Shown here in pieces: positions 7,712 through 53,235 of a stretch of 64,000 nt of DNA. Under the pieces are notes generated by a model. It ran no database searches. It saw only the letters and a program-made list of their open reading frames with translations, and was not told where the DNA came from. The translations under genes were made by a program, and so were the position numbers. This DNA comes from a virus: positions 1-64,000 of the IMG/VR virus record IMGVR_UViG_3300038441_001101; one strand, given 5' to 3'. The first letter of the stretch is position 1; the number at the start of each line of letters is the position of its first letter.

Positions 7712-8044
7712 TCACAGAGTCATCTCGAGGACTTTCAGTAATTGCTCGTAGTCGTGGCAGTGGATGCCCTCCTTCCACCGCTTTCCGATGGCCAGCTTGC
7801 CACTGGAAGGCCACCACTCGATCATCTTGGATTGGTATGTGTAGAAGATCCAGTGGTGACCGTTGTTCCTGATGTTCAATCTCCATTTGTGTTGTTGGCA
7901 CCAGAGGTCTACTTTGTCCTTGTTATCCAGAGCCACTTGCATCCTGCGATGATGACGGGCCTGCCAGCTCTCACTCTCCACGTACGGGACGAGACTGCTT
8001 CTTCCGATGCGATACTTGTCGGGGTTTCTGTATCTTTTTCTCAT
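7712..8044 (-). CDS. Hypothetical protein
   Basis: 110 residues, rich in Trp, His and Lys (HKWRLNIRNNGHHWIFY, IEWWPSSGKLAIG). Start at ATG 8044 follows AAAGGAGAAT. It overlaps the 3' end of the methylase gene by 74 bases. The WPSSGK-containing segment recalls small conserved phage proteins of unknown function. Confidence 0.65.
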   Translation of the reverse strand: MRKRYRNPDKYRIGRSSLVPYVESESWQARHHRRMQVALDNKDKVDLWCQQHKWRLNIRNNGHHWIFYTYQSKMIEWWPSSGKLAIGKRWKEGIHCHDYEQLLKVLEMTL

Positions 8045-8753
8045 ATTCTCCTTTCTGGAAAAAGGATAGTTGTGTGACATCATAGTCGGTGGGCAGGTTA
8101 CTCCAGATGGCTTCTGTGGTGAACGTGTTTGCTACCCCATTGATCATCTTCATGGGGTAGAAGGGGAGCCAATCGGCTTTAGTGTTTTCGCAGACAATCA
8201 CTTGCCCTTTGCGGGTACGACACCATTCAGCCAGGGATTGGAAATCCAGGTTCTTGTTGCCTTCTGTATAACCTTCACCACCATATTGATAAGGAGGATC
8301 GATGAACCAGGTGGCTTCCATGTTCTCCAGATCTTCATAGGATCCATGGACAATGTTCCAGTTCTTGATCTTATGGAGATGGGAGAGAGTCCGCTTTTTG
8401 AATCTCCTGTACTCTTGTTCTCCGAACTCGGTAACAGTCCATCGTCCATTACCTCCTGCTCTGGAACAAAGGAATCTTCCCAGGTTGAAAGCCTCTTCGC
8501 AATCAAACATCTCCTTGGAAACCCTGTCGCCTTTCTTCAAGACAGGGAACCTGAGGATGTCCTCTCTACTACATTGTTGGAACCATTTCCATATTCCAAC
8601 AACCTTCTTATCCTTGTCGACAAGGGTGATGTCATGATCCCAGTAAAGTAGGCTGTAACGGGCTGTCCCAGCAAACGGCTCAATGATCCTGTCAAACTTT
8701 GGTTTGGGATACAGGTGGACTATCTTGCTCTTAGAACCGTAATAAGGCCACAT
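7971..8753 (-). CDS. DNA adenine methyltransferase (D12 class, Dam-like)
   Basis: The 260-residue protein has the D12 class order: YYGSKSKIV near the N-terminus, the SAM-binding motif IEPFAGTARYS (about 23-33) and the catalytic FIDPPYQYGG (DPPY, about 150). It should methylate adenine N6 in a short DNA site; specificity cannot be read. It lies next to the clamp gene in the replication/modification block and may protect phage DNA from restriction. The last ~25 residues are very basic. Confidence 0.92.
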   Translation of the reverse strand: MWPYYGSKSKIVHLYPKPKFDRIIEPFAGTARYSLLYWDHDITLVDKDKKVVGIWKWFQQCSREDILRFPVLKKGDRVSKEMFDCEEAFNLGRFLCSRAGGNGRWTVTEFGEQEYRRFKKRTLSHLHKIKNWNIVHGSYEDLENMEATWFIDPPYQYGGEGYTEGNKNLDFQSLAEWCRTRKGQVIVCENTKADWLPFYPMKMINGVANTFTTEAIWSNLPTDYDVTQLSFFQKGEYEKKIQKPRQVSHRKKQSRPVRGE

Positions 8754-8759
8754 GCAACC

Positions 8760-9857
8760 TCACAACACGATCGGCATGATCACATGGTAGAAGGTATCAA
8801 ACCCTTTCATCTTGAAGACGATAGGGGAGTTCTTGTCCACCAGCTCCACAGTGACGTACTCCGTCTTGCAGACCTCCAGGAACTCGTGTAGCAAGTGAAC
8901 ATTGATCCCCACCTCCACGTCCTTGCCCTTCTTGATGGCCGCGAACGTGATGTCGGCATCACCCTTCTCCTGGGTGATGGTGGAGTAGCGCATGAGCATG
9001 CCAGTGATAGCCAGCTTGGACTTCCCGGTCTCTGAGGCAAAGACGCGGATCTGTCGGGCAGCCCGCAACAGTTCCATGGTTGGAATGCTCAAGGTAGTGG
9101 AGGGCTCAGAGATTGCCTGTCCCAATCGTTTATGATCCGGGAACTCTCCCTGCAACAACTGTGTAATCACATCCACACTGCCGGAATGGAACATGACCTT
9201 GCCTGTCCCAACCTGCACCTGGAGCTCGCCTTCCTCGGGCAGGATCCTGGAGATCATTTCCAGGGTCGTACCCTTGATGATGAAGGGAGTGTTCTCGGTG
9301 TTGATCTTGCCAGTGAGAGCAGTCTCCTCGTAGGAGAAGTGAAAACCGTCCACTGCGAACATGATCATCTTTTTACGTTCAATGGAAATCTGAACGCCAC
9401 CCAGTACCGAGTCGGAGGTGGCACTGCTTGCGAAGGCTACACGTTGAACCATCTCTTTGAACTGTGTAACCGACATTGTGAAGCTGGGCTCTTCTACACC
9501 AGGGATGTCCGGGAACTCATCCGCAGGCGCACAGTGGATGTTACTCGTGGACGTCTCCGTCATTACCGTAATGGACTGGTTCTTAGGATCCAGTTCCAGG
9601 TCAACCTCGTCGGAGTGGAGGGCTTCCACCAGGCTGGAGATGGTCTTGGCGGGAATACACGTCTTGAACTTCTTGCCCTTGGATGGGAATGTATAACCGA
9701 TTCCAATCTCCAGGTTGGTCGCTGCCACACGGGAGCTCCCGTTAGCACTTTCGAACAGGATGTTGCTCAATAGAGGGAGTACCGGATTGGCACCCACAGC
9801 TTTCACAACAGTGCCAACTGCCTTGGATAGCAGATCTTTACGAACGGTAGTTGTCAT
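8760..9857 (-). CDS. dnaN: DNA polymerase III beta-like sliding clamp
   Basis: 365 residues, the length of bacterial DnaN (about 366). Recognisable marks are PVLPLLSNILFE in domain 1, ATNLEIGI, the PADEFPDIP motif between domains 1 and 2, and a C-terminal VIMPIVL like the MPMRL end of DnaN. The clamp encircles DNA and tethers polymerases. ATG 9857 follows AAGGAGTAAT. No phage DNA polymerase is seen in the window, so it may recruit a host polymerase or the nucleases nearby. Confidence 0.93.
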   Translation of the reverse strand: MTTTVRKDLLSKAVGTVVKAVGANPVLPLLSNILFESANGSSRVAATNLEIGIGYTFPSKGKKFKTCIPAKTISSLVEALHSDEVDLELDPKNQSITVMTETSTSNIHCAPADEFPDIPGVEEPSFTMSVTQFKEMVQRVAFASSATSDSVLGGVQISIERKKMIMFAVDGFHFSYEETALTGKINTENTPFIIKGTTLEMISRILPEEGELQVQVGTGKVMFHSGSVDVITQLLQGEFPDHKRLGQAISEPSTTLSIPTMELLRAARQIRVFASETGKSKLAITGMLMRYSTITQEKGDADITFAAIKKGKDVEVGINVHLLHEFLEVCKTEYVTVELVDKNSPIVFKMKGFDTFYHVIMPIVL

Positions 9858-9858
9858 A

Positions 9859-10077
9859 TTACTCCTTGAAGATGGACTTCTGTCCATCTGATTTTTGACG
9901 TTCCTGACGTTCCTTGCGGCCGGGAGTTCCGATGTGTGTAACCTTGCCACGATGGTCGCACTTGTCGCATTTGATCACGGTGCCCTGGAGCAGCTGCGCC
10001 TCCAGGACGGAGTCCACTTCCACGACGAACAGGTGTGGATGGTTCTCTAGCATTACCTCAACTTCAAAGTCAGGCAT
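9859..10077 (-). CDS. Small zinc-finger-like protein
   Basis: 72 residues with one CDKCDHRGK pair and a basic tail (GRKERQERQKSDGQK). Two ATGs (10083, 10077) follow the ribosome site GGAAGGAGA; 10077 has the better spacing. It sits just before the clamp gene and may bind nucleic acid. Confidence 0.55.
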   Translation of the reverse strand: MPDFEVEVMLENHPHLFVVEVDSVLEAQLLQGTVIKCDKCDHRGKVTHIGTPGRKERQERQKSDGQKSIFKE

Positions 10078-10230: not shown

Positions 10231-12420
10231 TCATTCTCCTTTCATCAACAGTTCCACGTTTCTGGAACGCAGGCTACTGGCGAACTTCCTCCAGGTCACG
10301 ACGACCTCCGGAGGCAGGTTATTCTTGCGATATTCCAGTTCTGTGTACTCCGGATACACCTTGTTCAGGGCTTCCGCATCCCCGCTTGTAATGTAAAGTC
10401 CACTAGCGCCACCTCCAGGAAGCTCCGCAAAGTGAACAGAGAATGCGTTGTGTACCACCGTAACGTATCCATCGACAATGTGCTTGAGGGCAAACTCGTA
10501 GTCTTCGTACAGTTTGAGTGCAGGGTTGAAGCCCTGGCCCGTCTGGATGTTGACCAGCATGAGACCACGCACAGCATCGTTGACCGTGAACGGGAGACTA
10601 TTATCTTCTCCATTGATGTTCACACCTAGCAACGCTACGTTGGAATAGTCTTCCACCCAGCGTTCCAGTGTGCTGAACAGGGCCCGTAACGTGGAAGCCT
10701 CCCTGCTTTGATCTAACACTGCATCAATATCGTCATCCAGTATCCACGCATAAGGGTAGCCCTGCTCCTTACAGGTGGCATAGATGTATTCTCTGGCAGC
10801 TCCAGTCCCGATCGCTCCCTTGGGGAGTACCATCACGTCTGCATTGGGGAATCTATCATGGTAGTGATCCAGGTCTGTGCTTGGAACAACAAGAGTGTAG
10901 TTGATACGGGAGTTGTCCAACAACTTCATTGTGGTGGCTGTAGCCCAGCGCCTACGGCTGATCACATAGATTGGATATGCCACGTGCCCAAAGTTCGTTC
11001 CGTCCGCAGTCATTTCATCGAAACGTTCCGCATTAGGCTTGCCAGCCATGCGCAGCTGGAACGCCAACTCATTCACGGAGCCTATCCTTACGCCCTCTTC
11101 AATGAAGGGCTTGTTGTACAGGTAGATGATGTCCCCGTTGTCATCTGGAGCAGAGGCTACCAATGCGCCACCAAAGTACCGATTCGGGCTCTGCCAAGAG
11201 TTTGGTGTATTCCAGATGTCGTGCATGTAGTCATACATGGATTGATAACGACGCTTGGCACGCTCCACGCTATCCGATGGAAATCCTTCAGCGGTATAGA
11301 CTTCAATTCCACTGAGAACCTCATGAGCCTCCTCAGCGATATCCGACCAGGTCACGTAACCCTTCTCTCTGGCGATCAGGATTGCATGAGCGTACTGCCC
11401 GTGGTTGACATTGGATAACGGGCCCGTTTCCGGGAGTCCACAGCAGCCCGCGTGGTAACTGTCCTCTTTATGGTGTGCATCACTCACAAAGAATTTCAGG
11501 TTATGGCGTTCAGCGGAGTCTTTCATCTCCAGGATGTAGGGTCGCTTGAGATCATAGTTCAACCGGAGCAATCCACTGGCTCGCGCGCTATTCTTCATGT
11601 AGAAGTCCCAGACGTCGTACCCCAGCGTTTTACTCATGGCGTCCAGGCGTTCCTTGGAGGTGTTACTAGCACGCGACTCCCAGGTGAGGAACTCCGTGGT
11701 AACGCTATAGCATCCAGCATCCTCCGCCAATGTCATCATTTCTTCGATGCACTTGTCACTGGTGCCCAGTACAAAGGGCCGGAAGCGCAGGGTGGTCGCG
11801 CCCACTCCCATCTTGTTCAGCTTTTCCATGGCCGCAAAGCGTGCCCGTGCAAGAGGGACACCTGGCTCCAGCTTCTTGACGTGTTCCTCAATGCTGGATA
11901 TGATGGAGTACTTCCAGTGCATGTTCTTGGCACCTGTGCAGACCTCGATGTACTCCGAATCATCAACCCACCACACACCTTTCGTGCTAATGGAAATCGG
12001 GTAGTCGATCTCACGGAAGAAACGTAGCAGCTCCAGAGACTTCCGGAACTTGCGCTCGTACCAGTCGAAGCCATCACTGAGCCCACCCCACTGGAGCACC
12101 ATGCGCTTCTTGATGTAACCTGCGAACTGTCCACCGAACTCATCCGGGTGTAGGAACATACGCTTGATCTTCTCGATGTTCACCGGGCGAACCTTGTGGT
12201 GTAGATAATCATCCGCACCATCTCCAATAGCTCGCTGGAAGAAGCTGAAGCAATACAGACACTGATGCGCACAGTTACTGTACGTATCAAATGTCATGGG
12301 CATGGCACAATCTAAAATCTCATAGGTCCACCTCGGTGAACCGTAGAACCCCTCATCCAGCTTCAGTCCACCCATACTATCCGACTTGTCAGTTTTGATA
12401 TTCTTTGGTTTTGGGGGCAT
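10231..12420 (-). CDS. Radical SAM protein fused to GT-A glycosyltransferase (probable DNA base modification enzyme)
   Basis: 729 residues. The N-terminal half (about 20-330) is a radical SAM domain: CAHQCLYC gives the CxxxCxxC iron-sulfur motif at residues 50-57. The C-terminal half (about 490-700) resembles the GT-A family linked to TET/JBP dioxygenases in phages: IYVISRRR, VLPKGAIGTGAAREYI and the metal-binding ILDDDID at about 560. Those transferases add sugars to hydroxylated DNA bases. A fusion with radical SAM is an unusual arrangement. The gene opens a cluster with kinase, sulfotransferase-like, helical and amidotransferase proteins, so a role in DNA hypermodification is inferred. Substrate unknown. 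Confidence 0.8.
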   Translation of the reverse strand: MPPKPKNIKTDKSDSMGGLKLDEGFYGSPRWTYEILDCAMPMTFDTYSNCAHQCLYCFSFFQRAIGDGADDYLHHKVRPVNIEKIKRMFLHPDEFGGQFAGYIKKRMVLQWGGLSDGFDWYERKFRKSLELLRFFREIDYPISISTKGVWWVDDSEYIEVCTGAKNMHWKYSIISSIEEHVKKLEPGVPLARARFAAMEKLNKMGVGATTLRFRPFVLGTSDKCIEEMMTLAEDAGCYSVTTEFLTWESRASNTSKERLDAMSKTLGYDVWDFYMKNSARASGLLRLNYDLKRPYILEMKDSAERHNLKFFVSDAHHKEDSYHAGCCGLPETGPLSNVNHGQYAHAILIAREKGYVTWSDIAEEAHEVLSGIEVYTAEGFPSDSVERAKRRYQSMYDYMHDIWNTPNSWQSPNRYFGGALVASAPDDNGDIIYLYNKPFIEEGVRIGSVNELAFQLRMAGKPNAERFDEMTADGTNFGHVAYPIYVISRRRWATATTMKLLDNSRINYTLVVPSTDLDHYHDRFPNADVMVLPKGAIGTGAAREYIYATCKEQGYPYAWILDDDIDAVLDQSREASTLRALFSTLERWVEDYSNVALLGVNINGEDNSLPFTVNDAVRGLMLVNIQTGQGFNPALKLYEDYEFALKHIVDGYVTVVHNAFSVHFAELPGGGASGLYITSGDAEALNKVYPEYTELEYRKNNLPPEVVVTWRKFASSLRSRNVELLMKGE

Positions 12421-12422
12421 TA

Positions 12423-12638
12423 TTATTCTGCCTTTCTGACAGAGACTAGCTCAACTACCAACGAGTAGGTAAAATGGAAACTCATTACACAACTCTTCTT
12501 TTTGATACCAGAGCAGGGAACAACTTTCTCTATTTCACCATTCACTGCAATTGGATCCTTCTTCAGATCAATCTCGATTGTCGTTGTCTCCCCGCAATGT
12601 GGGCATATTCGCTTGAAACTAGGATTCTTATTTACCAT
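12423..12638 (-). CDS. Small zinc-ribbon protein
   Basis: 71 residues with ICPHCGE near the N-terminus and two further Cys (VPCSGIKKKSCV), fitting a zinc ribbon. ATG 12638 follows GGAG; it overlaps the stop of the kinase gene. Likely nucleic-acid or protein binding; function unknown. Confidence 0.6.
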   Translation of the reverse strand: MVNKNPSFKRICPHCGETTTIEIDLKKDPIAVNGEIEKVVPCSGIKKKSCVMSFHFTYSLVVELVSVRKAE

Positions 12639-12640
12639 AT

Positions 12641-13225
12641 TCAACTCCAGAATGATTTGATCTTACTCTTCACAGGAGTGGAAGTCCACTCTCCGTTGAT
12701 CTCTGCCACCAGCTCCAGGGCAGCCTGCTCCTTATCGGCTTTGGTATCGTTCTGTAAGTGGTGATGAACGGGATGAGTCATAGCCAGCCGATCCACTTTG
12801 GTCTCACGGCCCTTGCGCCAGCTGACGTTCTGCTCCGAACGGGCATTGCGGCGCTGCTCCAGGAGCTTCCTACTCATGGAAACGATACATAGGACAACTT
12901 CAAAGTGTTCCTCCAGGAAGGCCAGCATCTTCTCGTTGAACAACCGATCCCCTTCAAAGAAGATTACTTTACCACCGGAAGCCTTGCTCAATAGGAACTT
13001 CTGCGCTTCGGGCTGTACGTTCAATGGAAATCTGTCAGTACCAGGGAACGTCTCAGAGGGAGCATACGTTCCTAATATGATCAACTCTTTGGACTCCATC
13101 CAGGAGACGATGCCTTTGCGCTCAGACTTGAACGTGTGACCTTGCTTCTCTAGCAACTCAATCATCCTGCGAACAATGGTACTCTTGCCGGAGCCTGGAT
13201 AGCCTCCCACAACGATCACTTTCAT
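12641..13225 (-). CDS. P-loop kinase, candidate DNA base (5-hydroxymethyl-dU) kinase
   Basis: 194 residues. A Walker A motif GGYPGSGKST is at residues 7-16, and IFFEGDR near 90 could act as the Walker B/acceptor site. The fold is a nucleotide/small-molecule kinase. In thymidine-hypermodifying phages, P-loop kinases of this size phosphorylate 5-hydroxymethyl-dU in DNA to prime it for amino-acid transfer. Here it lies beside an amino acid:DNA transferase-like gene, which supports that reading. It could also be a general nucleotide kinase. Confidence 0.72.
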   Translation of the reverse strand: MKVIVVGGYPGSGKSTIVRRMIELLEKQGHTFKSERKGIVSWMESKELIILGTYAPSETFPGTDRFPLNVQPEAQKFLLSKASGGKVIFFEGDRLFNEKMLAFLEEHFEVVLCIVSMSRKLLEQRRNARSEQNVSWRKGRETKVDRLAMTHPVHHHLQNDTKADKEQAALELVAEINGEWTSTPVKSKIKSFWS

Positions 13226-13246
13226 GGCACTCTCCTTCTACTGTTG

Positions 13247-14569
13247 TTATTCATATCCGTAACGCTTTGCCTGCGAACGGATTCCATCTGCCAGTGACTT
13301 GCCTACCTGGAGTTCCAGCTCCGCCCAGGTCAATGGTTCATATTGGCCCCAGCCGCTGGCCTGGTTGGTTGCACCGAGCTGCGGGTCAGGTGTACCAGGC
13401 AGCTCCAGGACGTCCATTAGGTCACCCCAGTGATCATGGATCTGCTCCAATTGACAACGATACTCCGCTTGCTTGCTCTCGTCGATCCTTTTATTAATCC
13501 CATAATACATGGAAGCATTCCTGTAAATGCTGCTCCCGTCCATGGCCTTTGGGTCCATTGCGCCATTGTCAGCCCAGAACTCGGGGTTGATCGCTGGATA
13601 GTTCCGCATGAGGCTTGGAATGCACCACAATGGGTGACGAACGATATGTAACACATGAGCATAGGTATAGTCACTACGACGTTCACCAACGTTAGCACAG
13701 TCTCCACCGCCATAGACCGGGAACCAGGGATACCAGTCGTGATCGACCGCAAACTCTGCCCCAGAGCAACCGTCTTTTCCATTCCGTTGGTGACCAACGT
13801 CCAGTCCTAACATTGTCAGCAGATCACTGAAGTAGGTTGTCCCGCTGCGGCCCGTACCCGTAACTAACACGTGCCGTTTGACGGAGCCCTGTTTGGACTT
13901 TGACAACGGATCCACTCCCCACTTCTCCTCGTCCATTTTCTTATGAACATACTTCTTTGGATACCAGTGGATCTGTCGTTGCCTGGCCTCGGAGTAGTAC
14001 CTCCGCATCATGGTGGACAAGGGTGTCTCGACGGGATCGGTATCCGCGCTGGAGACCTTTTCCAGGGTCTTTATTGGATAAACCAGTCCATACTGATGGG
14101 ACATCCTTTTCGAGATGATCAGGGAGGTGGTCTTTTCTGTTGAGTAGGAAATCCATACAGCACCGAGTGGCTTGTTCTGGCTGATCTTGACGATCCGCTC
14201 CAGTTGTTTATAGTCTGCATTTGGATACGTGTGAGCCAACAGGTAACAACTGAATTTCAATTTCCCTTCGGTTTCCATCTTGCGGAACTGTCGCAGGGTA
14301 CTCTCGTTCAGCTTGAGCCTTGTCCAGATCTGCCAATTCGTTGCAGCGTATTCCTCCACCAACTGAAGCAGAGCCTTCATTGGAAATCTCACGGACTGTT
14401 CCCCCGAGACGACAAGTACTGCCTGTCTTGACCAGCTACAGATAGATAAGCCTCCCTCTGAGTGTTCCAGTTTGGACTTTCCGTACGTTCCAAGCTGTTC
14501 AATCAGCTCCTGATAGAACTTCTCCTGGACTTCCTCAGAGCTGCTTTCCACGGAAATCAAATCTAGCAT
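13247..14569 (-). CDS. Sulfotransferase-like protein with unknown N-terminal domain
   Basis: 440 residues. From about 225 a PAPS-type sulfotransferase pattern begins: HVLVTGTGRSGTTYFSDLL (5'-phosphosulfate binding loop) and a later HIVRHPLWCIPSL (3'-phosphate binding segment). Residues 1-220 are of unknown type. ATG 14569 is chosen because CAGGAGG lies 7 bases before it. Such proteins transfer a sulfo group or have lost that activity; the acceptor is unknown. Context with DNA modification genes suggests a base or carbohydrate acceptor. Confidence 0.78.
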   Translation of the reverse strand: MLDLISVESSSEEVQEKFYQELIEQLGTYGKSKLEHSEGGLSICSWSRQAVLVVSGEQSVRFPMKALLQLVEEYAATNWQIWTRLKLNESTLRQFRKMETEGKLKFSCYLLAHTYPNADYKQLERIVKISQNKPLGAVWISYSTEKTTSLIISKRMSHQYGLVYPIKTLEKVSSADTDPVETPLSTMMRRYYSEARQRQIHWYPKKYVHKKMDEEKWGVDPLSKSKQGSVKRHVLVTGTGRSGTTYFSDLLTMLGLDVGHQRNGKDGCSGAEFAVDHDWYPWFPVYGGGDCANVGERRSDYTYAHVLHIVRHPLWCIPSLMRNYPAINPEFWADNGAMDPKAMDGSSIYRNASMYYGINKRIDESKQAEYRCQLEQIHDHWGDLMDVLELPGTPDPQLGATNQASGWGQYEPLTWAELELQVGKSLADGIRSQAKRYGYE

Positions 14570-14583
14570 GTATTTACCTCCTG

Positions 14584-15561
14584 TCAAAATAATGAGAGCT
14601 GTTTAGACTGCGTCCCGGCTCCATTCCATAACTGGCTATTGTCCTTGCCGGTCTTTTCTATGAGCAACTCAAATGGATAGAACTCTTCCCGGAACTGCCA
14701 TAATACCTCCCAGCAGACACCCTCCTGGACGTTCTTCTGCATGGAAGAGATTTCTTTGGCTTGTCGAGTAATGTAGTAACCTGGATAACGTTTCCCACGA
14801 TGCCACTTCTTATAGGCACACAACGTGGTTTCCACATTCCAGATGTCCACTCGTGTACCTGGGGACTCCTTTCGCATTAGGCTCAAAAGTTCTTTGAACT
14901 TTTTGTGTAGCCACTCCATTTCGGAACTAGAGATGTGATCCCTGCCGTAGTTGTGACCACATAATAGATCATCTCGCCCGAGCGCAAAACATAGTCCGTT
15001 GCGGGAGGACTGTGCCTCTTCGAGTGGAAAGTAGTCAGGCTCAATAGGTAGATCAGTAACCACATGTACAGCCTCCAATAAAAGGAAGAGTTTGAACCTA
15101 CCCATATACTTGACGTTCTTGAAATAATCGTAGCAGGCTTGATAGGGACTGCTGCTTGATTGAATTGCCCTCGAGACAATCTCATGATAAGTGTTCTCCT
15201 GATCTTCTCCGCAAAGACTGCGATAGTCCATGTACATTCCCACGAACAGGTTCGAGGATCGTATCCACCTACAGTCCGTTTGGAAATCCAGCTGGTGGCG
15301 GTGGGCATTCCACCAGCGCTCCAGCCGTCCAACGTCCACACCCAGGTAATCCGGGAACTCGTTATAGATGTAGAATACCGTCGCGGCATTATAGCAAGTA
15401 GCGTACAGATATGCCAACCAGTAGCGCTGTTCCATGTTCAGCTCGAAGCGGTCACAGACATACTTCAGCAGTTCATAGCTTGGATCAATGTCCTTGAGCT
15501 CCTCACTGTAACGGTGGTACTCCAGGAACTCCCGCACGCGTCCTTCGTTGATTAGAGCCAT
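14584..15561 (-). CDS. Helical protein resembling amino acid:DNA transferase / alpha-glutamyl-putrescinyl thymine pyrophosphorylase
   Basis: 325 residues, mostly helical. The stretches LNMEQRYWLAYLYAT, YNEFPDY, WWNAHRHQLDFQTD and RWIRSSNLFVGM recall the helical family predicted and shown to act on 5-pyrophosphoryl-methyl-dU in hypermodified thymidine phages, where an amino acid or polyamine displaces the phosphate. The identification rests on recalled motif similarity, not on a search. It overlaps the amidotransferase gene by 10 bases and follows the kinase and sulfotransferase genes in the same operon. Confidence 0.6.
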   Translation of the reverse strand: MALINEGRVREFLEYHRYSEELKDIDPSYELLKYVCDRFELNMEQRYWLAYLYATCYNAATVFYIYNEFPDYLGVDVGRLERWWNAHRHQLDFQTDCRWIRSSNLFVGMYMDYRSLCGEDQENTYHEIVSRAIQSSSSPYQACYDYFKNVKYMGRFKLFLLLEAVHVVTDLPIEPDYFPLEEAQSSRNGLCFALGRDDLLCGHNYGRDHISSSEMEWLHKKFKELLSLMRKESPGTRVDIWNVETTLCAYKKWHRGKRYPGYYITRQAKEISSMQKNVQEGVCWEVLWQFREEFYPFELLIEKTGKDNSQLWNGAGTQSKQLSLF

Positions 15562-16190
15562 ACAGGCTCCATGGGTGGAATGTCTAACGCGCTGAGATAG
15601 TAGAACTCCGTAGACTGGATCGCCCTACTCCAGATATCATACGTGGAAAAGACAAACTCCACATCCATGGATAGGGCCCTCCACAGGGGACGCCGCTCGT
15701 TCCGGAGAGCCATTGCTTTATTGTTCACGTGGGCTACTCCTGCGAATGTTACACGCTTCTGTTCCAGCAAGCTCATGAGCCTACGGTCTTCTTCCACTAA
15801 CATTCGCAGGATGATCTCACCATCATTCTCTGTGGTGTATTCCCTTTGGAACTCCTGCTGATATTCCTCCCGAGTGGACATCCTGACTACACCGTTGAAA
15901 GCCAGGAGGCTCTGCCCTAGAACAATTGGTTGATTGTTATTGATGATCTTCCAGTCTCCGCTGGTATCATAACGGCAGTGACCAATCAGCTCTGAGAATG
16001 TGTTCTCCCGAATGAACTCGATGGCTGCTGGAAGGTCAAACGTTCGCACAGTCTGGAACTCTTCTTTAGAGCTGCTCCGTAGACTCACCCCAAACGCATG
16101 TAATCCCCGGATACGGGACTGTTCCAATACTCTAATGACCAGTCCTTTATATCTATTGCCATCCCCTCGGAAGTAAAGTACACCGCACAT
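15552..16190 (-). CDS. Class II glutamine amidotransferase-like protein
   Basis: 212 residues. The N-terminus MCGVLYFRG gives a catalytic Cys2 after Met removal, and IGHCRYDTSGD plus the NNNQPI and AFNGVV strings match the substrate-binding loops of Ntn-type glutaminase domains. These release ammonia from glutamine for a partner synthetase. The usual synthetase domain is absent, so the ammonia acceptor must be another protein. Placement in the modification cluster suggests ammonia is used to aminate a base or side chain. Confidence 0.82.
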   Translation of the reverse strand: MCGVLYFRGDGNRYKGLVIRVLEQSRIRGLHAFGVSLRSSSKEEFQTVRTFDLPAAIEFIRENTFSELIGHCRYDTSGDWKIINNNQPIVLGQSLLAFNGVVRMSTREEYQQEFQREYTTENDGEIILRMLVEEDRRLMSLLEQKRVTFAGVAHVNNKAMALRNERRPLWRALSMDVEFVFSTYDIWSRAIQSTEFYYLSALDIPPMEPVWL

Positions 16191-16575: not shown

Positions 16576-16954
16576 CAGGGTCAACCTCGTCATCTTTCCG
16601 GGAGGGTTCCAGGCCCAGCATATCTCGCTCCCAGGCTTCCAGCAGCGTGAGCCCGTCCTTCATCACGGCAATCCCGTTCAGGGTACCGATCTTAGCACCT
16701 GCCGCCAGGCCCTTGCGGCCACGTTTCGTTAGAGCTGTGATTGCCCGTATCATCTCTTCTCGGGATGGAAATACAATGAAGAGAGTATAGGTTGTAGCAC
16801 CGTTGGCATTAGCCTGATACCGAGGGCTATCCGGAAGCGTAGCGGCATCAAAGTAAGTCACGTTCTTCACGCCATCCAGGAAGTATTCCTCCTCGGCTTC
16901 CTGGAGGAACGTTTCCATTCCGGGCAAGGTTACTTTATTGTTATTCTTTGGCAT
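16553..16954 (-). CDS. Hypothetical protein
   Basis: 133 residues with a mixed alpha/beta pattern; TLFIVFPSREEMIRAITALTKRG looks like a strand followed by a helix. The C-terminus is acidic (KDDEVDPDEA). ATG 16954 follows AGGAG. Function unknown. Confidence 0.6.
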   Translation of the reverse strand: MPKNNNKVTLPGMETFLQEAEEEYFLDGVKNVTYFDAATLPDSPRYQANANGATTYTLFIVFPSREEMIRAITALTKRGRKGLAAGAKIGTLNGIAVMKDGLTLLEAWERDMLGLEPSRKDDEVDPDEARAPI

Positions 16955-16956
16955 TC

Positions 16957-17148
16957 TCACTCCTGTTCCACGATCTGAATATCGTCATCAATCAGCTCCC
17001 TCACAGCATCAAGGTCATCCGAGAGGATGACCAGATCACCATTGTCGACAAGGTCTTGAATGTTTTCTGTTTCCTGGCCTGCATCCATGAGGGACTCGCT
17101 GAACTGCAAGGCATACCACTTACGGCTGACTCTAACCACTCTCCACAT
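16957..17148 (-). CDS. Small acidic protein
   Basis: 63 residues, strongly acidic (QDLVDNGDLVILSDDLDAV). ATG 17148 lies behind AAAGGAGTAAGA. Such acidic mini-proteins in phages often mimic DNA or inhibit host proteins, but nothing here shows that. Confidence 0.55.
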   Translation of the reverse strand: MWRVVRVSRKWYALQFSESLMDAGQETENIQDLVDNGDLVILSDDLDAVRELIDDDIQIVEQE

Positions 17149-17401
17149 TCTTACTCCTTTCAAATATCTCACCTTGATGGACAGGGCAATCAGCGCTCAG
17201 TACCTTTGGATATGAAAAGCAATTACAGGTGGAGGCAGACCACCTTCCCCATAACTCCTCTTCCTTCCAGCACAGATTGAGATATTCTACCCTGAGGCCC
17301 GCCTTGCTGAAATAGGCTTCCTCCGGCAAGTCCTGTAGGGCTTTCAATAGCCAGGATTGGAAATCAATGTGGTTGTGCTCCAGTAATAAAAGTTGTGGCA
17401 T
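17132..17401 (-). CDS. Hypothetical protein
   Basis: 89 residues with several Cys (NLCWKEE, STCNCFS, ADCPVHQ), possibly metal binding. ATG 17401 follows GGAGGAGCA. It overlaps the next gene by 17 bases. Confidence 0.55.
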   Translation of the reverse strand: MPQLLLLEHNHIDFQSWLLKALQDLPEEAYFSKAGLRVEYLNLCWKEEELWGRWSASTCNCFSYPKVLSADCPVHQGEIFERSKNVESG

Positions 17402-42388: not shown

Positions 42389-43019
42389 CGAGGCGGGGAG
42401 CCCGATGTTCCTGGAGCGCATCACCGGCATCATCCATGTTGGTGCGAATGCCGGGCAGGAGAGGGAGCTGTATGCGGAGCACAGTCTGCATGTGCTGTGG
42501 ATCGAGCCGATCCCGGAAGTGTTTGACGCATTGGTGGAGAACCTACGGGAATTCCCCAGGCAGCGGGCTGTTCGAGCCCTGCTCTCCGAGAGGGACGACA
42601 GATTGGAGACCTTGCATGTTGCCTCCAACCAGGGCATCTCTTCCTCCATCCTGGCCCTGGCTCAGCACCAGGAGATCTTCCCGGAGATCCATTACGTGGA
42701 CTCCATCCCGTTGCCGACCGTCACGCTGCCCACCCTGCTCAGGAGGGAGCGGATTGATCCGGGATGCTATCAGGCTTTGCTGTTGGATGTGCAGGGCGCG
42801 GAGCTGCGGATCCTGGAGGGCAGCATCCCCATGCTGTGCAACTTCGACTACATCCAATTGGAAGTGGCGGACTTCGAGTCCTATCGGGGATGCTGCAAGC
42901 TGGTGGACATCGAACGTTTCATGTCCATGAATGGATACGTAGAGCTGGAGCGAGTTGTATGTCCGCTGCCCGTCGGGAACTATTACGAGATGGTGTATTG
43001 CAGGGAGAGCTCATCATGA
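42381..43019 (+). CDS. FkbM-family methyltransferase
   Basis: 212 residues. GIIHVGANAGQE gives the SAM-binding motif and LLLDVQGAELRILEG the second FkbM signature. Family members O-methylate sugars or other hydroxyls. ATG 42381 is embedded in an ATGCATGA overlap with the previous stop. It ends in an ATGA overlap with the fused glycosyltransferase, so the two are coupled. Confidence 0.9.
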   Translation: MHDEAGSPMFLERITGIIHVGANAGQERELYAEHSLHVLWIEPIPEVFDALVENLREFPRQRAVRALLSERDDRLETLHVASNQGISSSILALAQHQEIFPEIHYVDSIPLPTVTLPTLLRRERIDPGCYQALLLDVQGAELRILEGSIPMLCNFDYIQLEVADFESYRGCCKLVDIERFMSMNGYVELERVVCPLPVGNYYEMVYCRESSS

Positions 43020-45136
43020 TCATCAGTCACAGCACCCTTGGCAAGAACGGCAGGCTGGGCAACCAGCTGTTCCAGGTGGCGTCCACACTGGGCCTGGCGG
43101 AGAAGCACGGCACCACGGCTGCCTTCCCGCAATGGGAATACGAGCGTTACTTTGACATCAGCCTCCCGCACGGGCCCATGAGCAGCAACGTTGTCCAGGA
43201 GAAGTACTTCCACTATCATGACTGGGAGATCGCCGGAGACGTGGACGTGATGGGATTCTTGCAGTCCGAGAAGTATTTCGGCTCCACTAAGTTGAAGCTG
43301 AAAGAGGAGTTCGTCCAGGAGGTGAAGTCCAGGGTGCCTGGACTGTTCACTCACGAGACGGTGTGCATCCAGGTGCGGCGTGGGGACTACGTTGGAAATC
43401 CCAATTACCACCAGCTGCCGATCACGTATTACATCTGCGCCTTACTGGAGCACTTCCCCAACTGGAGGGACATGGACATCCTGGTCATCAGCGATGACGT
43501 GGAGTACTGTAAAGTCCACTTTGGCTGCCTGCCCAATGTAACGTTCTCGGAGGGCAACAATACGGACATCCAGGACATGGCACTGGCCTCCCTCTGCGAC
43601 CACTTCATCATAAGTAACTCCAGCTTCGGCTGGTGGTGCGCCTGGCTCGGGGAGAAGAAGCACACCAAGGTCGTTCACAGTGGGCATATGTTTGCCGGGA
43701 AGCTGGCACGTAAGAACGCCAACGACTATCGTCCGGCAAGATGGATCTCTTACAACAGGGAGAGCTACAAGATTCCCCTCAAGGACGTCACGTTTACCAT
43801 CCCTGTTTACTTTGACCATCCGTTCCGCAAGGAGAACCTGGACCTCATCTGCTACTTGCTGTTGAACTCCTTCGAGACCCAGCTCATTGTCAGCGAGCAG
43901 GGTGGCAACAAGTTCAAGTACGTGGAGTCCTGGGCCACCTACATGGTGCACGCGGGCAACGTCTTCCATCGGACCAAGATGCTCAACGATATGTGCAACA
44001 GGGCCGGGACACCCTACGTCGCCAACTGGGACGCAGACGTGATCGTTGCACCAATGCAGGTGCTGCTGGCAGTGGAGGCCCTGCGCAATGGGGCCGACAT
44101 GGCATACCCGTACGATGGAGGCTTCGCGAGGATGCCAAGGTTGGAATGGTTCCCGAAGCTCCAGAAGTCCTTTGACATCGGCGTGGTGGGCAACACGTTC
44201 TTCAAGGGAAGGGATCCTTCCGAGAACAGCTCGGGTGGGGCTGTCCTTTGGAACAAGGAGGCCTTCATCGATGCCGGGATGGAGAACGAGTACATGGTTT
44301 CTTTTGGACCTGAGGACGGAGAGCGATTGGATCGCGCCAAGAAGCTGGGGTACAGGGTGGAGCGCATCCAGGGCCCGCTGTTCCACATGAACCATCACGT
44401 GGGACCGAACTCCTCTCCAAAGAACCCTTACTTCAATGCGAATGTGATCGAGCAGAAGAAGGTGTTCAGCATGAGTGCGAGCGAGCTGCGGGCTTACGTG
44501 GACACCTGGCCCTGGCGGCATCAGTACACCAACCGATACTATCGCGAGATCAGCGAGGGTGCAATGCGCTCTGCCAGGATCGTCATGGAGGCCTTGCCGT
44601 TCCAGGTTGGCTCCGTGATCGACGTGGGGTGCGGCGTGGGCGAGTGGAGCAACGGCAATCCTGATTACATTGGCATAGACTATCGCATCGACAAGGATAA
44701 ACTGCTCATCCCTTACGGGAGCTACGTTGAATGCAATCTCAACAGGGAGTTCGTTGTCCCTCCAAAGAAGTTTGACCTGGCCCTTTGCCTGGAGGTGGCG
44801 GAGCACCTGCATCCCAGCCGGGCCGAGCCTTTGGTGGAGTACCTCTGCTCGCTCAGTGACCGCGTCTTGTTCTCGGCAGCCATCCCCTATCAAGGTGGCA
44901 GTGGTCACGTGAATGAGCAGTGGCAGGAGTGGTGGGCCGAGCTGTTCTACAAGAATGGGTTCGGCACCACGGACAACTCCGTCAAGCTCGCCCTGACCGT
45001 CGTCCATCATGAGGAAGTGGAGCTCTGGTACCGGCAGAACATGGTGCTGTACGAGAGGGGTGGCCCTGGACGAGTGACCAACTTTGTCCTGCCGGAGTAT
45101 TACGAGCAGATCGTGAAAGGAGCGAAGGATGGCTAG
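43016..45136 (+). CDS. Trifunctional protein: GT11 fucosyltransferase-like, GT-A glycosyltransferase and methyltransferase domains
   Basis: 706 residues. About 1-260 is GT11-like: GRLGNQLFQVAS, the IQVRRGDY donor motif and SSFGWWCAW. About 265-480 is a second glycosyltransferase, with ANWDADVIVAP as its metal-binding DXD-like site and DGERLDRAKKLGYRVERI. About 520-690 is a class I SAM-dependent methyltransferase (VIDVGCGVGEWSN). ATG 43016 overlaps the FkbM stop. A three-enzyme fusion of this type is unusual. It could build and cap a glycan in one chain; the acceptor is unknown. Confidence 0.85.
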   Translation: MIISHSTLGKNGRLGNQLFQVASTLGLAEKHGTTAAFPQWEYERYFDISLPHGPMSSNVVQEKYFHYHDWEIAGDVDVMGFLQSEKYFGSTKLKLKEEFVQEVKSRVPGLFTHETVCIQVRRGDYVGNPNYHQLPITYYICALLEHFPNWRDMDILVISDDVEYCKVHFGCLPNVTFSEGNNTDIQDMALASLCDHFIISNSSFGWWCAWLGEKKHTKVVHSGHMFAGKLARKNANDYRPARWISYNRESYKIPLKDVTFTIPVYFDHPFRKENLDLICYLLLNSFETQLIVSEQGGNKFKYVESWATYMVHAGNVFHRTKMLNDMCNRAGTPYVANWDADVIVAPMQVLLAVEALRNGADMAYPYDGGFARMPRLEWFPKLQKSFDIGVVGNTFFKGRDPSENSSGGAVLWNKEAFIDAGMENEYMVSFGPEDGERLDRAKKLGYRVERIQGPLFHMNHHVGPNSSPKNPYFNANVIEQKKVFSMSASELRAYVDTWPWRHQYTNRYYREISEGAMRSARIVMEALPFQVGSVIDVGCGVGEWSNGNPDYIGIDYRIDKDKLLIPYGSYVECNLNREFVVPPKKFDLALCLEVAEHLHPSRAEPLVEYLCSLSDRVLFSAAIPYQGGSGHVNEQWQEWWAELFYKNGFGTTDNSVKLALTVVHHEEVELWYRQNMVLYERGGPGRVTNFVLPEYYEQIVKGAKDG

Positions 45137-52095: not shown

Positions 52096-53235
52096 ATGAC
52101 CACTCTGACAGTAAAAATCAACAGGAAGAAACAAGGCCCTCGCAAGATATCCACCAGGGGAGCATTCACCAATCAGCAAACCGAGGATGCCCGAACCCTT
52201 TTCACGAACCAGGCAAAATCCATCTCTAAGGACGGCAAGAGCTATCTTGTTGTCCCTGGCGTGCCTGTCCGTGAGCAGGTAATGAATACCTACCTCCTGC
52301 CAGCTTCTGAGATCCATCCGGAAGACTGGGACGGTACCCCTATCTCCATCCGGCATGCCCGGAAGAACAACGGGAGTGTGCAGGTGGAGCACCCGGATGT
52401 TCCCATCATTGGACACCTGACCAACACCTCCTGGGATGACTCCAACAAGCGTATGCTGGCTGACTACTGGATCGACGAAGCCGAGGCTATGCGTTGGCCG
52501 GAGGGCCAGGTCATCCTGGGCTCCATCAAGAACGGGCAGATGCTGGAGACCTCCACGGCTTACTGGGCAGACGAGCAATATACTCCAGGTGTATTCAACG
52601 GTAAGAGCTACCAGACTGTCCACCGCAACCCCAAGCGCGACCACATCGCTATCTTCCCCGACAGCCAGATCGGTGCCTGCTCCATCCAGGACGGCTGTGG
52701 CGTCAACCGGAACATGCAACATAATGGAGATTGTCAGTGCATGCGGCACAACGTCACAGGAAACCTCCCAGAAGAAGGGAAAGCCCTTTGGGAGAAGGTC
52801 TACGAAGCCAACAAGGACAAGGGTGAAGAGTCTGCCGCTAAGATCGCCTGGGCTGCCTGCAAGAAGGCGGGTTGGTCAAAGAACGACAAAGACGAGTGGG
52901 TGAAGCAGAACAATGCGGGCTACCCGGAGTACAAGTCGAACCACCTGCCCACCGCCATGCTGATCGGATACGCCCTGAACAAGGGCTCCCGCACGAAGGA
53001 AGAAATAGAGAGGACGCGCAAGATTGTCCTCGAGAAGGGCATCACGAAGCCCGTCTGGGTGATGTGCAACGGGACATACAAGATCCTGGACGGAAACCAC
53101 AGGGTTCACCTGGCGGACGAGCTGGGGATCGAGCAGATCCCTGTTCGCGTGGTGAATGCCCACCTGATGGAGCTGGATCCGGAGGCAGTCTACCGGAAGT
53201 GGCTCCACGAGCAGGATCAAGGATACCTAAAATGA
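52096..53235 (+). CDS. DUF2213-like head protein fused to ChaB-like and ParB-like domains
   Basis: 379 residues. The N-terminal ~210 resemble DUF2213 (phage head maturation proteins: VPGVPVREQVMNTYLLP, IGHLTNTSW, NGQMLETSTAYW, HIAIFPDSQIGACS). About 228-275 is ChaB-like (LPEEGKALWEKVYEAN, AAWSKNDKDEW-like AGWSKNDKDEW). About 310-365 is ParB/Srx-like (ILDGNHRVHLADELGIEQIP). The fusion is unusual. The DUF2213 part may act in capsid maturation; the ParB-like part may bind DNA or have nuclease or ATPase activity. ATG 52096. Confidence 0.75.
   Translation: MTTLTVKINRKKQGPRKISTRGAFTNQQTEDARTLFTNQAKSISKDGKSYLVVPGVPVREQVMNTYLLPASEIHPEDWDGTPISIRHARKNNGSVQVEHPDVPIIGHLTNTSWDDSNKRMLADYWIDEAEAMRWPEGQVILGSIKNGQMLETSTAYWADEQYTPGVFNGKSYQTVHRNPKRDHIAIFPDSQIGACSIQDGCGVNRNMQHNGDCQCMRHNVTGNLPEEGKALWEKVYEANKDKGEESAAKIAWAACKKAGWSKNDKDEWVKQNNAGYPEYKSNHLPTAMLIGYALNKGSRTKEEIERTRKIVLEKGITKPVWVMCNGTYKILDGNHRVHLADELGIEQIPVRVVNAHLMELDPEAVYRKWLHEQDQGYLK

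Follow-up and report, generated by a model that had tools for sequence, protein, structure and literature searches.

The base J pathway of kinetoplastids, in which JBP acts together with a glucosyltransferase, activates the thymine methyl group and then glycosylates it. TET/JBP enzymes require oxygen, which makes it puzzling by what means a phage with a strictly anaerobic host might modify thymine once the DNA has been synthesized. In Salmonella phage ViI and other Ackermannviridae, 5-hydroxymethyl-dU (5-hmdU) is made by a dUMP hydroxymethylase. The 5-(2-aminoethyl)dU pathway of Pseudomonas phage M6 is encoded by a cluster that combines a kinase (gp54), an amino acid:DNA transferase (AADT, gp51) and a radical SAM protein (gp53). 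Rhodococcus phage Tonitrus carries ParB, TET, aGPT-PPlase2 and a 5-hmU DNA kinase, which constitute a predicted thymidine hypermodification system (PMC11955845).

We analysed the first 64,000 nucleotides (here, the window) of the IMG/VR virus record IMGVR_UViG_3300038441_001101, whose whole length is 66,463 bp and which is possibly incomplete. The window shares with Tonitrus a homologous AADT and kinase, a ParB-like homologue in its relatives and a similar predicted purpose (PMC11955845), but it has a radical SAM domain in the place of TET, it adds a glutamine amidotransferase (GAT) and a fusion with a TET-associated glycosyltransferase (TAGT), and no ParB gene is adjacent to its cassette. With M6 it has in common homologues of gp54 and gp51 and a radical SAM protein; however, M6 also encodes a PLP-type enzyme and gp58, which is homologous to thymidylate synthase; gp53 is only distantly related to the radical SAM protein of the window, and neither GAT nor TAGT was found in the M6 cluster. 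The window AADT has full-length matches in the ViI/Ackermannviridae group of phages, at just ~27% identity. The logic of activation followed by glycosylation recalls base J, with a radical SAM enzyme where base J has a dioxygenase.

Layout and gene content of the operon

The cassette occupies 16190-10231 as one tight operon, in the order GAT, AADT, sulfotransferase-like protein, kinase, small ORF and radical SAM-TAGT fusion (Table 1). Intergenic distances range from -10 to +21 nt, the AADT and GAT genes sharing a 10 nt overlap, and ribosome-binding sites precede several of the start codons. The positions of the ORFs agree with those of a first-pass annotation of this DNA.

Table 1. Features of the cassette and of the adjacent genes
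Feature	Coordinates	Strand	Length	Evidence or remark
Class II (Ntn) GAT, PurF-like, first gene of the cassette	15552..16190	-	212 aa	GATase_6 PF13522
AADT, aGPT-PPlase type	14584..15561	-	325 aa	ADDT PF18724, phrog_3271
Sulfotransferase-like protein, variable tailoring slot	13247..14569	-	440 aa	PF00685 weak, TGRSGTT motif
P-loop kinase, 5-hmdU DNA kinase kind	12641..13225	-	194 aa	PF18751, phrog_800
Small cysteine-containing ORF, zinc-ribbon-like by eye	12423..12638	-	71 aa	
Radical SAM (~residues 19-450) and TAGT glycosyltransferase (482-663) fusion	10231..12420	-	729 aa	PF20691, NCBIfam, AF2
DNA polymerase III beta-like sliding clamp	8760..9950	-		PF02767 E 2.4e-22; given as context, with no modification role claimed
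D12/Dam-like adenine methyltransferase	7971..8753	-		MethyltransfD12 PF02086 E 4e-5, just over cut-off

Curated cut-offs are passed by AADT, kinase, GAT and TAGT. The AADT matches its Pfam profile with E 3.5e-20 and its phrog with E 6.9e-41, and it resembles phage proteins annotated as aGPT-PPlase clade 2. The kinase matches Ploopntkinase3 (PF18751) with E 6.4e-8 and phrog_800 with E 5.5e-16; in a blastp comparison against a 9-protein set it matched M6 gp54 (E 3.4e-5), and the HMM of its family matches the TET-adjacent kinases of Tonitrus and Margaery (1e-24 to 1e-32). It is thus a 5-hmdU DNA kinase homologue, with that activity predicted. Likewise, our own HMMs recognise the Tonitrus kinase, AADT and ParB. 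The GAT passes the Pfam cut-off barely (E 2.6e-6) and matches NCBIfam purF with E 3.4e-9; its residues C2, R73, N99, G100 and D123, as expected of a class II active site, are invariant across 13 relatives, and its profile matches in the PDB are amidophosphoribosyltransferases and GlmS.

At the nucleotide level, the 12-kb region had no match in INPHARED. GAT lies immediately upstream of AADT in all 22 of the AADT loci fetched (interrupted by the contig end in L011), and the order GAT-AADT-[variable slot]-kinase-radical SAM was found again in other contigs; the cassette is therefore not a chance assembly. The region is very likely a DNA-hypermodification operon, and its gene set probably modifies thymines of the phage's own DNA. 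The first-pass annotation had proposed an operon of the thymidine hypermodification type, and the placement of AADT and kinase in the expected families, rather than in unrelated ones, supports this. Its calls of radical SAM, GT-A (here TAGT), kinase, AADT, class II GAT and Dam-like proteins also hold by Pfam, NCBIfam or phrog matches. The Dam-like and clamp genes are counted here only as neighbours of the cassette; the clamp gene follows the radical SAM-TAGT fusion in L025 and L041 too.

A radical SAM domain fused to TAGT

The C-terminal domain of the fusion is a TAGT glycosyltransferase (E 7.8e-25, 88.4 bits against a cut-off of 27.5). The match of the N-terminal domain to PF04055 is weak (E 0.007), while NCBIfam rSAM_PA0069 matches it with E 6.8e-13. 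The cysteines C50, C54 and C57 of its CxxxCxxC motif are invariant in 105 relatives, and this motif plus the fold matches place the protein in the radical SAM superfamily, as the earlier fusion call had it. The protein is a member of a large phage family, with full-length fusion relatives in L025, L026/L041 and L027 (61-63%); at position 246 it carries Thr instead of the Cys seen in 99% of family members. No isolated phage in INPHARED has a match, at E 1e-10, to a typical radical SAM member of this family.

In an AF2 model, the radical SAM domain has as its best structural match by VIA spore photoproduct lyase (Z 16.9, rmsd 3.7, 267 residues aligned, 12% identity), which acts at a thymine methylene in DNA. 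At the sequence level, SplB-like NCBIfam models match the protein far under their cut-offs, and the SPL profile PF20903 is absent from its Pfam matches up to E 1. The radical SAM profile, run against PDB sequences, hit only viral phosphoproteins, which we judged to be chance matches. The fold and family match could also indicate a DNA repair enzyme akin to spore photoproduct lyase that serves as an accessory or has entered the operon by chance. We regard this as very improbable: the lyase is a DNA repair enzyme with other partners, whereas the domain described here is fused to TAGT, its family is recurrently linked to AADT, kinase and glycosyltransferases, and some of its loci carry a SAM synthetase.

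The source of 5-hmdU and the comparison with TET loci

The first-pass annotation had found no dUMP hydroxymethylase in the window, and the whole 66,463-bp record likewise gave no match to thymidylate synthase, ThyX, TET/JBP, 2OG-FeII_Oxy_3 or C5-cytosine methyltransferase. The TET/JBP domain PF12851 (2OGFeDO) being among the profiles without a match, the proposed resemblance of the radical SAM protein to TET/JBP would be one of function only, not of membership. Tet_JBP and thymidylate synthase are also absent from 38/38 full records with a radical SAM gene and from six more that include the window (44 in total), 2OG-FeII_Oxy_3 is absent from 42 such records, and ThyX occurs in only 2 of 42. 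The relatives suggest that the radical SAM enzyme itself supplies the missing dUMP hydroxymethylase step. The earlier annotation had seen in the radical SAM part a hint at a so far undescribed base; the family call stands, and the relatives point instead to a role in filling this gap. The records are contigs and may be incomplete, and a hydroxymethylase could lie outside the record or be unrecognisable.

We then compared 117 radical SAM loci with 91 TET loci. The two kinds of phage have ParB-like, AADT, kinase, GAT and TAGT neighbours in common, and radical SAM and TET occur together in none of the loci. Partner counts, with TET and with radical SAM respectively, were 82 and 81 for ParB, 27 and 41 for AADT, 25 and 9 for GAT, 6 and 23 for TAGT-like GT, and 14 and 2 for another GT. 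Contigs with both GAT and AADT contained only TET (26), only radical SAM (9), neither (1) or both (0). S-adenosylmethionine synthetase, checked with Pfam, is present in 35/111 radical SAM loci versus 0/87 TET loci; in the window we found none of this kind. Trees of the partner families require only 1-3 changes of the TET/radical SAM label per family, so the loci are not independent events, which weakens an argument from repeated swaps, and the exclusion could be due in part to lineage. ParB-like genes may be common beside phage terminases generally.

Most of the 27 radical SAM loci from genome collections belong to gut or rumen anaerobes; examples with the operon include the Bacteroides fragilis S82 and Selenomonas ruminantium S137 loci. 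The isolated phages with this TET have aerobic or phototrophic hosts (Mycobacterium, Microbacterium, Gordonia, Arthrobacter, Prochlorococcus and the like). We think it slightly better than an even chance that the widespread phage radical SAM family is an oxygen-independent functional counterpart of TET/JBP; in phages that infect anaerobes, its members would activate the 5-methyl group of thymine in DNA and so supply the kinase, AADT and glycosyltransferase pathways that TET/JBP feeds elsewhere. In the literature covered, which left Iyer 2013, Lee 2018 and Lee 2022 outside its scope, no paper was found in which a radical SAM enzyme stands where TET would be.

The M6 cluster, with its kinase, AADT and radical SAM protein, offers a different reading, that of late tailoring: the radical SAM enzyme would rearrange an amino acid attached by AADT, as gp53 does, and 5-hmdU would come from an enzyme unseen in the contigs. 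An hhalign profile comparison does connect the domain of gp53 with the one studied here (70% probability, E 4e-5), but the similarity is undetectable by blastp or HMMER. Moreover, M6 has gp58, whereas a thymidylate-synthase homologue occurs in 0/44 of the radical SAM records tested, and no AADT is seen in 63/117 radical SAM loci, some of which have only ParB or glycosyltransferases. We consider late tailoring unlikely.

A proposed route to modified thymine

We favour, as the probable reading, that the operon hypermodifies thymines in replicated phage DNA, with the SPL-like radical SAM domain activating the thymine methyl group without oxygen, in place of TET or a dUMP hydroxymethylase. In the chemistry that we propose, this domain would generate a 5'-deoxyadenosyl radical and take a hydrogen from the thymine 5-methyl group; oxidation and addition of water would give 5-hydroxymethyl-dU, or an equivalent reactive methylene. 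We know of little precedent for hydroxylation by radical SAM enzymes, which counts against the proposal, as do Thr246 of the window protein and the window's lack of this kind of SAM synthetase. Judging by homology, the kinase would then phosphorylate the hydroxymethyl group, turning it into a leaving group, and AADT would replace the phosphorylated group, using a nitrogen nucleophile. Ammonia for this step may come from the PurF-like GAT coupled to AADT, and the product would then be 5-aminomethyl-dU. The variable-slot protein, here the sulfotransferase-like one, would cap the resulting group, and the fused TAGT domain, again by homology, would glycosylate a portion of the hydroxymethyl groups. 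The likely purpose would be shielding from host nucleases.

Since radical SAM chemistry is diverse and the residues gave no inference of substrate, the enzyme might instead make another handle, perhaps on a cytosine or a uracil, or add a one-carbon or other group rather than oxidize the thymine methyl. C5-MTases do occur in 4 of 36 radical SAM records (not in the window), so few that 5mC made by the phage is an improbable substrate in the majority. The top structural match is an enzyme whose target is thymine in DNA, and the kinase and AADT partners are typical of 5-hmdU pathways; both argue against another handle, which we find rather improbable.

If thymine methyl activation by the radical SAM domain is correct, this replacement would be a new enzyme class acting on DNA bases, would explain DNA shielding by gut and rumen phages and would offer a defined enzyme for experiments. 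The pairing of GAT with AADT, in turn, hints that an aminomethyl base is formed with the help of ammonia, possibly a new phage DNA nucleoside.

The protein in the variable slot of the window probably starts at ATG 14569, which follows AGGAGG, rather than at TTG 14587. Its match to PF00685 (on 13247-14587, E 0.034) reaches 14.0 bits against a cut-off of 22, so that we do not count it as a member of the sulfotransferase family, and the assignment relies on the P-loop-like motif TGRSGTT. The earlier sulfotransferase-like call remains a weak one. A pattern search found no viral relatives, and a single weak phage match was obtained (C48C1, E 6e-3). Matches of ~30 residues to kallikrein sequences in the PDB were judged to be chance, and an AF2 model built from the single sequence, without an alignment, was unusable (pLDDT 32). 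In relatives, the slot holds GNAT, amidoligase or phosphatase-like proteins. The L005 protein in the amidoligase place has no Pfam match, and L012 alone carries an amidoligase verified by Pfam (2.6e-7).

Gene content and conservation of the cassette

The first-pass annotation had read the minus-strand genes between 16190 and 10231 as one operon, and the profile searches uphold most of its family calls. The class II glutamine amidotransferase (GAT), the amino acid:DNA transferase (AADT), the kinase and the TET-associated glycosyltransferase (TAGT) all exceed curated cut-offs (Pfam, PHROGs), and a radical SAM domain is confirmed in the N-terminal half of the TAGT fusion protein; only the sulfotransferase-like call is weak. 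The genes overlap or lie at most 21 nt apart, with ribosome-binding sites before several. The source record is a virus contig of 66,463 bp, the window also encodes terminase, portal and head genes, and megablast against isolated phages gave no match. The cassette is very probably a DNA-hypermodification operon. Proteins like its 5-hmdU-kinase-like member recurrently carry wrong names in databases: phrog_800 and M6 gp54 are called 'terminase small subunit', and the label 'adenylate kinase' is also met with.

Among the 22 viral loci fetched as AADT relatives, GAT lies directly upstream of AADT in all 22 (in L011 it is cut by the contig end). The order GAT-AADT-slot-kinase-radical SAM is kept in L003, L005, L026 and L027, the last two retaining the TAGT fusion, and L025 has the kinase, the fusion and a more distant AADT. 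The slot varies, and no convincing ORF was seen there in L026/L027. Variable enzymes at one step fit a scheme in which different caps are put on a common intermediate.

The GAT active site is complete and its nearest relatives are PurF enzymes, in whose reaction ammonia displaces pyrophosphate; the leaving group that AADT displaces from the activated methyl is probably of the phosphate type. This makes it attractive, if rather doubtful, that the pair produces 5-aminomethyl-dU.

Features of the window and of related loci
Locus	Coordinates (strand)	Feature	Match or label
Window	16190-10231 (-)	hypermodification cassette	
Window	10231-12420 (-)	radical SAM-TAGT fusion	
Window	12641-13225 (-)	5-hmdU-kinase-like protein	wrong label in database annotations
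Phage M6 (L034)	16686-17249	5-hmdU-kinase-like protein, gp54	wrong label in database annotations
Window		variable slot: sulfotransferase-like protein	weak, E 0.034
L003		variable slot: GNAT acetyltransferase	
L005		variable slot: GNAT + second protein	
L012		variable slot: amidoligase	PF12224 2.6e-7
L025		variable slot: dual-specificity phosphatase	weak match
L071	5544-11242	SAM synthetase-ParB-GAT-AADT-kinase-GNAT-radical SAM operon	phage or prophage
L122	5591-11242	same operon	phage or prophage
L179	5029-5721	FkbM-type methyltransferase adjoining TET	
L060	2032-3562	APH-like phosphotransferase + putative cytidylyltransferase beside radical SAM gene	by eye (cytidylyltransferase)
L046	11245-12696	GTP cyclohydrolase I + another protein, directly downstream of radical SAM gene	PF01227 7.8e-52
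Window	42764-45136 (+)	790-aa multidomain protein between terminase and portal	family 11 glycosyltransferase + galactosyltransferase-like + methyltransferase
Window	52096-53235 (+)	head-maturation-protease-like protein	C-terminal ParB_N-like domain

Source of 5-hydroxymethyl-dU

In known systems AADT and the kinase act on 5-hydroxymethyl-dU. Pseudomonas phage M6 has its own thymidylate-synthase homologue, gp58, as the source, and Rhodococcus phage Tonitrus carries TET (PMC11955845). The window's record has neither: the dUMP hydroxymethylase first noted as missing from the window is absent, as a thymidylate-synthase homologue, from all 66,463 bp, and so is TET. We lean towards the radical SAM enzyme replacing TET or the hydroxymethylase.

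Where GAT-AADT loci have no radical SAM protein, TET lies directly downstream of AADT, except in L012 and truncated contigs. After both sides were expanded, the 117 radical SAM and 91 TET loci (some contigs fetched and counted twice) did not overlap. The 36 de-duplicated GAT+AADT contigs comprise 26 with TET only, 9 with radical SAM only, none with both and one with neither, the short contig L012. TET and thymidylate synthase were found in none of 38 full radical SAM records tested together, nor in six further ones including the window's, contigs that may be incomplete; 2OG-FeII_Oxy_3 was not found in 42 records, and ThyX occurs in 2 of 42. Since a C5-cytosine methyltransferase occurs in just 4 of 36 records, the methyl group acted on would most simply be thymine's own.

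The Fisher values (1e-7 for radical SAM/TET exclusion, 1e-10 for SAM synthetase) overstate the independence of the loci, because 1-3 TET/radical SAM label changes suffice in each partner-family tree. SAM synthetase genes occur in 35 of 111 radical SAM loci versus 0 of 87 TET loci, counted with an HMM built from, and favouring, the radical SAM side; such enrichment is as expected if SAM is consumed.

The radical SAM enzyme and its proposed step

C50, C54 and C57 are invariant, and C38, C246, C326 and C327 are conserved in addition; these extra cysteines could hold an auxiliary cluster oxidising the substrate radical. Residue 246 is Cys in 99% of 105 family members and Thr in the window protein, a possible sign of altered chemistry. 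The AF2 model is good over most of the radical SAM half and poor at the end of TAGT. In structure comparisons spore photoproduct lyase ranks first, with a Foldseek E of 4e-6 and, by VIA, Z 16.9, rmsd 3.7, 267 aligned and 12% identity; SuiB scores lower (Z 15.5). The reaction of this lyase on DNA involves a radical at a thymine methylene.

The 27 genome-collection matches to the enzyme come mostly from anaerobes of the gut and rumen (Clostridia, Lachnospiraceae, Bacteroidaceae, Prevotella, Selenomonas, one Methanobrevibacter bin), whereas the hosts of isolated phages that carry this TET are aerobic actinobacteria, cyanobacteria and Caulobacter. Because the two collections were sampled differently, the split can be no more than supportive of an oxygen-free role.

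Clustering of genes neighbouring 108 radical SAM and 87 TET anchors found ParB-like, AADT, GAT, TAGT-like and another glycosyltransferase around both. Likewise, the isolated phages Tonitrus and Margaery carry TET beside ParB and kinases of the radical SAM-locus family (HMM E 1e-24 to 1e-32). Radical SAM also occurs with TAGT or a GT-B enzyme where AADT is absent (L028/L042, L030, L044), so an early, pyrimidine-activating role fits better than amino-acid tailoring.

Other neighbouring genes

An FkbM-type methyltransferase adjoins TET in 30 TET loci and is found in 1 radical SAM locus. The APH-like and cytidylyltransferase-like pair (clusters 28 and 44) recurs in several radical SAM loci, hinting at a phospho-alcohol-type decoration. 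The GTP cyclohydrolase I of L046 perhaps means that this phage also makes a deazaguanine-type modification.
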